NCBI GenBank assembly: GCA_019218375.1
Contig: JAHUUK010000001.1
Location: 62,001 to 126,000, forward strand
DNA from: Dermabacteraceae bacterium TAE3-ERU5
Lineage (GTDB): Bacteria; Actinomycetota; Actinomycetes; Actinomycetales; Dermabacteraceae
Length of the DNA stretch: 64,000 nucleotides
Direction: 5' to 3'
In this document: in pieces, positions 60,199 to 61,239 of the stretch
Numbering within the stretch: position 1 is the stretch's first letter
Layout: each line of letters starts with the position of its first letter
Notes under the pieces: generated by a model
Told to the model about the DNA's origin: nothing
The model's input: only the letters and a program-made list of their open reading frames with translations
The model's database searches: none
Made by a program: the position numbers and the translations under genes

Positions 60199-61239
60199 GT
60201 GACTCTCCACCAGAGCCAGAAGGGCCGCGTTCAGGTTAAGGCGAGGATTATCCGCGACCGTGGCCCTGTCGCCGAACTGTGCTTCGAAAAAGTCACCGGG
60301 CGGGCCAACGATGACGCGAAACTCGAAACCCTCTTGAGTCTCGACGAAGAGGCTACGGGGCGCCTGATCAAGTTGTGCTATGCCCTCAAGGGCATCGACC
60401 CCACGGGTGAGGAACCCTTGAAACTCGACGACGACCTGCTCGCTGCAATCATGGCCGATCCGAACGCCCTGACCGCCGCCTACGACCGTGACCCAGAGGG
60501 CTTTGCGGAGATAATCAAGTCCGATGTGACCGCCAAGGATGTCATCGCCATTGCCGCCCAAAAGGCGGCTATTAGGCTCTTCGAGATTCTTCTAGGCAAT
60601 CCCGAAGAGTTCGAGCGCGTCCGGGAAAGGGGTGGTAAGGAGGCCGTTTCGCAGAGCTTATTCGAGGAGAATCCGTGGATCCTCTGCGTGGGGTTGTCGG
60701 GTCCCCTCTTCACGTCGTGGGACCAAACCAAGTTGGAGCGGGTAGTTGGCGGAGCGACAGTTGCAGGCGTCGGGAAGCGCGTTGACGCTATGCTAACCAC
60801 AAGCGGCGCTGTCCGATCACTCATTCTGACTGAGATAAAGTTACACGACGACCCACTGCTCGAGAAGGATCCCTACAGATCAGGATGTTGGGCCCCCTCC
60901 CACGCAGTATCAGGCGGCGTTGCCCAGGCCCACATCACTGCTGACCGGTCACGGGACGACCTCGAAAAATAGCTCTCCACTCGCGACGAAGTAGGCTACG
61001 ACACGGGTAAGCAGGTCTACGCAGGCGCACCTCGTTCATACGTGATCATCGGGCGATTATCGTCCCTCATGCGCAACGACCGACTGCATCCCGACAAAGT
61101 ACGGGCGTTCGAGTTGTATCGCCGTCATCTCTCCTATCCGGAGGCACTGACCTATGATGAGTGGCTGGCGCGAGCGCGCTGGAGCCTGAGCCTGAGCCTG
61201 AGCCTGAGCCTGAGCCTGAGCGAGGATAGCGAGGAGTAA
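60199..61239 (+). pseudogene. Shedu-type (DUF4263, SduA) antiphage nuclease, interrupted by an in-frame amber codon
   Basis: The GTG at 60199 has GAGG upstream; another GTG lies at 60178. The frame runs 257 codons to a TAG at 60970-60972, then continues in the same frame for 88 codons to 61239. The first part holds the nuclease core: FEENPWIL (155-162), Asp196 in RVDAML, ExK at 212-214 (TEIK) and Gln243 (GGVAQ), matching the PD-(D/E)xK pattern. The part after the stop matches the family C-terminus (VIIGRL, FELYRRHL, LTYDEWLARA). One point change therefore breaks the gene, unless the stop is read through. Composition is less GC-rich than neighbouring core genes. Confidence 0.82.
61183..61218 (+). 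repeat. Hexanucleotide microsatellite (six AGCCTG units)
   Basis: Six exact tandem copies of AGCCTG near the 3' end of the Shedu frame encode alternating Ser-Leu, just before the EDSEE terminus. Unit number changes would alter protein length without shifting frame. Confidence 0.95.

Follow-up and report, generated by a model that had tools for sequence, protein, structure and literature searches.

The Shedu reading frame and its internal TAG

The window, a 64,000-nucleotide stretch of the genome of Dermabacteraceae bacterium TAE3-ERU5 (an assembly of 1.92 Mb in 11 contigs, 96% complete), holds near its right-hand end a remnant of sduA, which encodes a Shedu nuclease, bordered on one side by xerC and on the other by the fused ends of two islands (Table 1). 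The Shedu frame lies on the plus strand, opposite to the sense of comM; it is open from GTG codons at 60178 and 60199 to the internal TAG, and then continues in the same frame to a TAA at 61237–61239. With the TAG read as X, the match to SduA_C (PF14082) spans the stop (E = 4.4e-23; 82.6 bits against a cut-off of 27), and residues 5–337 of the read-through frame match positions 51–383 of the 392 in the PADLOC SduA profile PDLC00394 (E = 5e-97). The preliminary description of a single Shedu frame split by one TAG, with both halves resembling the family, is therefore upheld. Shedu proteins of known structure (8TI8/8TI9 and 8PS4) are also recognizable from the sequence of the remnant and, judged from these similarities, a chance match is excluded.

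Table 1. Coordinates of the features in the window (position 1 is its first letter)
Feature	Position	Strand	Remarks
xerC (tyrosine recombinase), native neighbour	59147..60085	-	Pfam PF00589/PF02899
sduA (Shedu nuclease) remnant	60118..61239	+	Without native start and first 43 residues; one internal TAG
Deletion junction GGCGCGCCGA, 10-bp microhomology	60118..60127	.	Common to intact sduA of A. bolidensis and the dprA-xerC spacer of the sister genome
Longest likely surviving ORF, 257 aa	60199..60972	+	Internal GTG with fortuitous GAGGAAGAA upstream; holds D196, ExK 212-214, Q243
In-frame TAG	60970..60972	+	TGG (Trp) in the three closest homologues; residue variable in more distant ones
3' part past the stop	60973..61239	+	Conserved Shedu blocks PRSYVIIG, FELYRR and TYDE-LARA still encoded
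(GAGCCT)6.7 hexanucleotide repeat, (Ser-Leu)n	61182..61221	+	TRF, 100% matches
Left end of Shedu island (island B)	61248..61388	- (comM-sense)	77% identical to left end of the A. bolidensis island
Right end of island A, ...GTCCGTAGGGGTGTGCTTTCTATGCGGCAACGAG	61389..61517	-	Fused directly to island B left end; also matched by the A. bolidensis right end and by ends from G270 and G001
Island A cargo, 1681-aa open frame, weakly Avs4-like, P-loop	61627..64000, on to 66672 outside the window	-	PADLOC Avs4, E = 1.8e-8

This is the only Shedu locus in the genome, and it carries a single TAG. The residues of the PD-(D/E)xK site, namely, Asp196, Glu212 and Lys214 (of the ExK motif) and Gln243 (numbering from the GTG at 60199), are all present upstream of the stop, as had been noted, and align with those of the relatives. 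In its nuclease-domain sequence the remnant thus resembles the Shedu SduA proteins; it differs in the deletion of its native N-terminus, the internal TAG and the replacement of two otherwise invariant residues. Given the loss of the N-terminal segment of the family (43 residues) and the TAG within the frame, we class the locus as a Shedu remnant rather than as a working member. No relative of the protein was found in the viral contigs searched, nor any Shedu in the same-genus genome searched. Signs of damage are also seen at two further Shedu loci of actinobacteria: L071 (genome G568) has a TAG within a short frame, and at L072/L074 (genome G743) the gene is split over two frames. An AlphaFold model of the protein, built from a four-row alignment, had a pLDDT of 42, too low for further use.

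The closest intact copy is that of Arsenicicoccus bolidensis DSM 15745 (NZ_AUFG01000020; locus L005), with 88% DNA identity over a gap-free 1073 bp. The codon at the position of the stop is TGG in this gene and likewise in L053 and L062, which follow it in closeness; we therefore infer a change from TGG to TAG (Trp to stop), and not the CAG-to-TAG (Gln to stop) origin put forward in the preliminary description. The latter had also named homologues that naturally end at this position as grounds for rejecting its reading: none was found among the 18 aligned relatives, all of which extend beyond the stop and include conserved blocks there (PRSYxxxG, SFELxRR and TFDELLARA). About 70 conserved residues come after the TAG, and of the 184 query positions that align with the crystallized Shedu nuclease domain, 73 (about 40%) lie beyond it. 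Close to the 3' end of the remnant, the hexanucleotide repeat expands a Ser-Leu tail that comprises about two units in A. bolidensis.

The 5' truncation and the deletion junction

Homology to sduA begins abruptly at 60118, downstream of an in-frame TAA at 60112 that lies in the xerC spacer, and the PADLOC match correspondingly starts only at profile position 51. The intact A. bolidensis gene encodes 408 aa from a GTG start preceded by GGAGG, and homology with the window starts 43 residues into this protein. Additional N-terminal sequence in the same frame is also seen in other relatives, including Arthrobacter agilis and Paenarthrobacter ureafaciens, and the N-terminal block ETEADFAALRTLGRTTIGKSFPLQFGS, conserved in the relatives, is absent from the remnant. 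Since the relatives have about 43 more residues, the GTG at 60199 is taken to be an internal codon and not the native start. The statement that the gene bears no other damage is consequently incorrect: it has lost its 5' end and carries replacements at invariant residues.

The junction could be resolved against both of its parents by a three-way comparison of the window, A. bolidensis and the sister genome G001, in which exactly GGCGCGCCGA is common to all three. The spacer upstream of xerC is shared with the sister genome up to 60127 (blastn); there, the order is comM 3' part, dprA, spacer and xerC, such that dprA precedes xerC. Of the eight genomes searched, only that of TAE3-ERU5 is missing dprA and the comM C-domain, which are present in all seven relatives, including a sister species that is 94–98% identical in these flanks; despite the assembly being only 96% complete, we ascribe this absence to the deletion because of the junction itself. 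The gap between 60085 and 60118 is the site at which dprA and the 3' part of comM have been lost. In A. bolidensis, by contrast, the comM 3' part, dprA and xerC are all present. DNA processing for natural transformation was probably lost along with these genes.

Probable inactivation of the gene and competing explanations

Pairwise dN/dS against the A. bolidensis gene is 0.18 before the stop and 0.20 after it. These low values on both sides, together with the lack of indels, suggest that the shared history of the two genes was mostly spent under selection and that the lesions are relatively young; in particular, the value past the stop suggests that the tail was long under selection and that the TAG is fairly recent. 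When amino-acid changes were polarized with the next two relatives, 31 fell on the window branch and 7 on that of A. bolidensis (binomial p = 1e-4). Moreover, the window copy carries W151S and G163C at positions that are invariant in 17 of 17 relatives. Taken together, the excess of changes and the invariant-site replacements suggest relaxed constraint, with adaptive change as a possible alternative. A four-taxon codon branch model rejected a single omega (p = 7e-7) and gave 0.29 for the window branch, but the synonymous distances to the outgroups are saturated and some values lie at their bounds, hence our reliance on the amino-acid polarization instead. The per-branch N:S counts alone do not differ significantly (Fisher p = 0.35). 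In a leave-one-out count of deviations at conserved columns, the window copy (5) is high without being unique, as L067 (6) and L056 (5), which deviate similarly, are intact-looking relatives.

We consider it highly probable that the locus is a pseudogene with at least two lesions, the 5' deletion and the TAG, and that it most likely represents a non-functional Shedu gene. The sequence shows both lesions, the missing neighbours, the accelerated protein change and the lack of an amber suppressor; the order of events and the loss of function are inferred. The gene would have come in with a small defence island inserted in comM, of which it formed part of the cargo. The junction reads as a microhomology-mediated deletion that joined GGCGCGCCGA inside sduA to its counterpart in the dprA-xerC spacer, fusing the interior of sduA to the xerC spacer and taking with it the start and first 43 codons of sduA, the remaining island, the comM 3' part and dprA. 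The gene has also acquired the TGG-to-TAG nonsense mutation, at the cost of some 80 C-terminal residues and, among them, conserved nuclease-domain blocks. Shedu is capable of toxicity in foreign hosts (PMC12904381), which makes loss after gain of the module plausible.

Several other readings have to be set against this one. An error of sequencing or assembly at the TAG, in an otherwise continuous frame, would agree with the conservation of the downstream part (dN/dS about 0.2). However, the TAG substitution belongs to a cluster of four within 12 bases, involves no homopolymer indel and is well inside a 415-kb contig, albeit known from one assembly; furthermore, the 5' truncation stands independently of it, and we regard such an error as improbable. 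A shortened nuclease of 257–264 aa, initiated at the internal GTG and either still active or serving as a regulatory fragment, is less probable again. Its Asp, ExK and Gln residues precede the stop, and the purine-rich, ribosome-site-like sequence upstream of the GTG means that a peptide could still be made. Nevertheless, it would have neither the N-terminal residues nor the PRSYVIIG, SFELYRR and TFDELLARA blocks kept in the aligned homologues, Trp151 and Gly163 are replaced, and in the best-studied Shedu it is an N-terminal clamp that binds DNA ends (PMC12904381). That every aligned homologue runs on past the TAG also counts against a working short form.

The remaining two readings carry hardly any weight. 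For amber read-through, or a suppressor tRNA, to yield a full-length protein, the frame is suitably open to the TAA ending at 61239 and the downstream dN/dS is 0.20; yet none of the 47 tRNAs in the 96%-complete assembly, checked in the stretches located by an RF00005 search, has the CUA anticodon (CTA in DNA) that would read UAG, TAG is the stop codon of three of the nine neighbouring genes counted, and the gene no longer has its native start. Reversible switching to a phase-like off state might be imagined from the hexanucleotide repeat at the 3' end of the gene, but this is the only tandem repeat nearby and its six-base units cannot shift the frame. The TAG itself is a point substitution outside the repeat, and the missing 5' end cannot revert; the deletion thus refutes a reversible state. 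Of what the preliminary description proposed, the family, the frame and inactivation as one option stand, whereas read-through, a switch and an active short form, like the supposed origin and the supposed lack of further damage, prove wrong or lack support. The best reading of the sequence remains that of an ordinary pseudogene.

Defence islands in comM

In the sense of comM, the genome of TAE3-ERU5 presents the comM 5' part (ending LLFLDE), island A, the left end of island B, sduA cut at 60118, and xerC. At the tandem junction (window 61248–61517; L061 2249–2518), the Shedu island begins, with its left end, immediately after the right end of the Avs4-like one, and an AACGAG/GACGAG motif is shared. 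The 1681-aa ORF of island A (L061 2628–7673, corresponding to window 61627–66672 on the minus strand) is apparently intact; against the NCBIfam Avs4 model it scores far under the cut-off (E = 1.5e-7), and it may possibly represent a divergent AVAST-type defence protein. Junctions of a similar kind occur in genome G270, near 7797 in L081 and near 6992 and 10991 in L082; at 6990–7041 and 10989–11040 of the latter, a perfect or near-perfect inverted repeat, GGTGTGCTTTCCATCTCGCG...CGCGAGATGGAAAGCACACC, surrounds GACGAG in the manner of a tyrosine-recombinase crossover site.

In A. bolidensis, a single island, of the same type and with a similar left end, splits comM at the same codons; it contains sduA and an ORF with HEPN/Toprim_N domains, and has GACGAG on both sides. 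The comM gene is broken after LFLDE in both genomes, and resumes with (E)APEF or (E)VPEF after the right end in L005, L083 and L102. The cassettes that split comM at its Walker-B codons share conserved ends and differ in their defence cargo (L061 7922–8941, equivalent to 66921–67940 and outside the window; L005 3106–6184; L102 14051). Sequences resembling the right end were also found at three places in G270, in G196, where the comM 3' part follows, and in the sister genome G001. The cargo beside these ends comprises SIR2-HerA and PD-Lambda-5 genes in G270; in G196, which has a long upstream region, a TrwC relaxase and a cytosine methylase; and in G001 an XhoI-type restriction-modification system with a PDC-S53 helicase, at the same comM position as the islands of TAE3-ERU5. 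A match to the end pattern in G273 (L084), with three mismatches, was set aside; its comM context and cargo were not established.

The comM Walker-B motif is already known to be targeted by Tn6022 and by the Tsy transposon (PMC10293859), and the site itself is therefore not new. Like those elements, the islands described here are inserted at this motif, have defined ends and carry cargo. They differ in that the islands of the window and of A. bolidensis showed no YRec, HTH, TnsF or Tn7 genes, in the short GACGAG-like motif that flanks them, and in their actinobacterial hosts, a group that the text of PMC10293859 does not mention. By Pfam, the cargo ORFs of the islands in the window genome (L061), A. 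bolidensis (L005) and G001 (L102) include no recombinase, and in the TAE3-ERU5 genome as a whole Phage_integrase is matched only twice, once by xerC. We would tentatively propose, with somewhat less than even confidence, that actinobacteria harbour a family of mobile defence modules to which the Shedu remnant belongs as a single cassette. Members of this family would have conserved ends and, for the most part, no recombinase gene of their own; they would insert at the comM Walker-B site, stack there in tandem, end against end, bring exchangeable defence systems, and depend for their mobility on a tyrosine recombinase, Tsy-like or other, acting in trans. After a brief look for earlier reports, recombinase-less defence cassettes in tandem at comM may be new.

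For the Shedu gene itself, the tempting reading of a switchable or read-through nuclease is removed, and it follows that, wherever a single stop leads to a gene being called 'split', its 5' end must be compared with those of its relatives. More broadly, the finding that two sister species differ in the defence systems they hold at one comM position, beside a matching end sequence, suggests a turnover locus that gains, stacks and loses defence modules, at the cost of comM and, here, of dprA.
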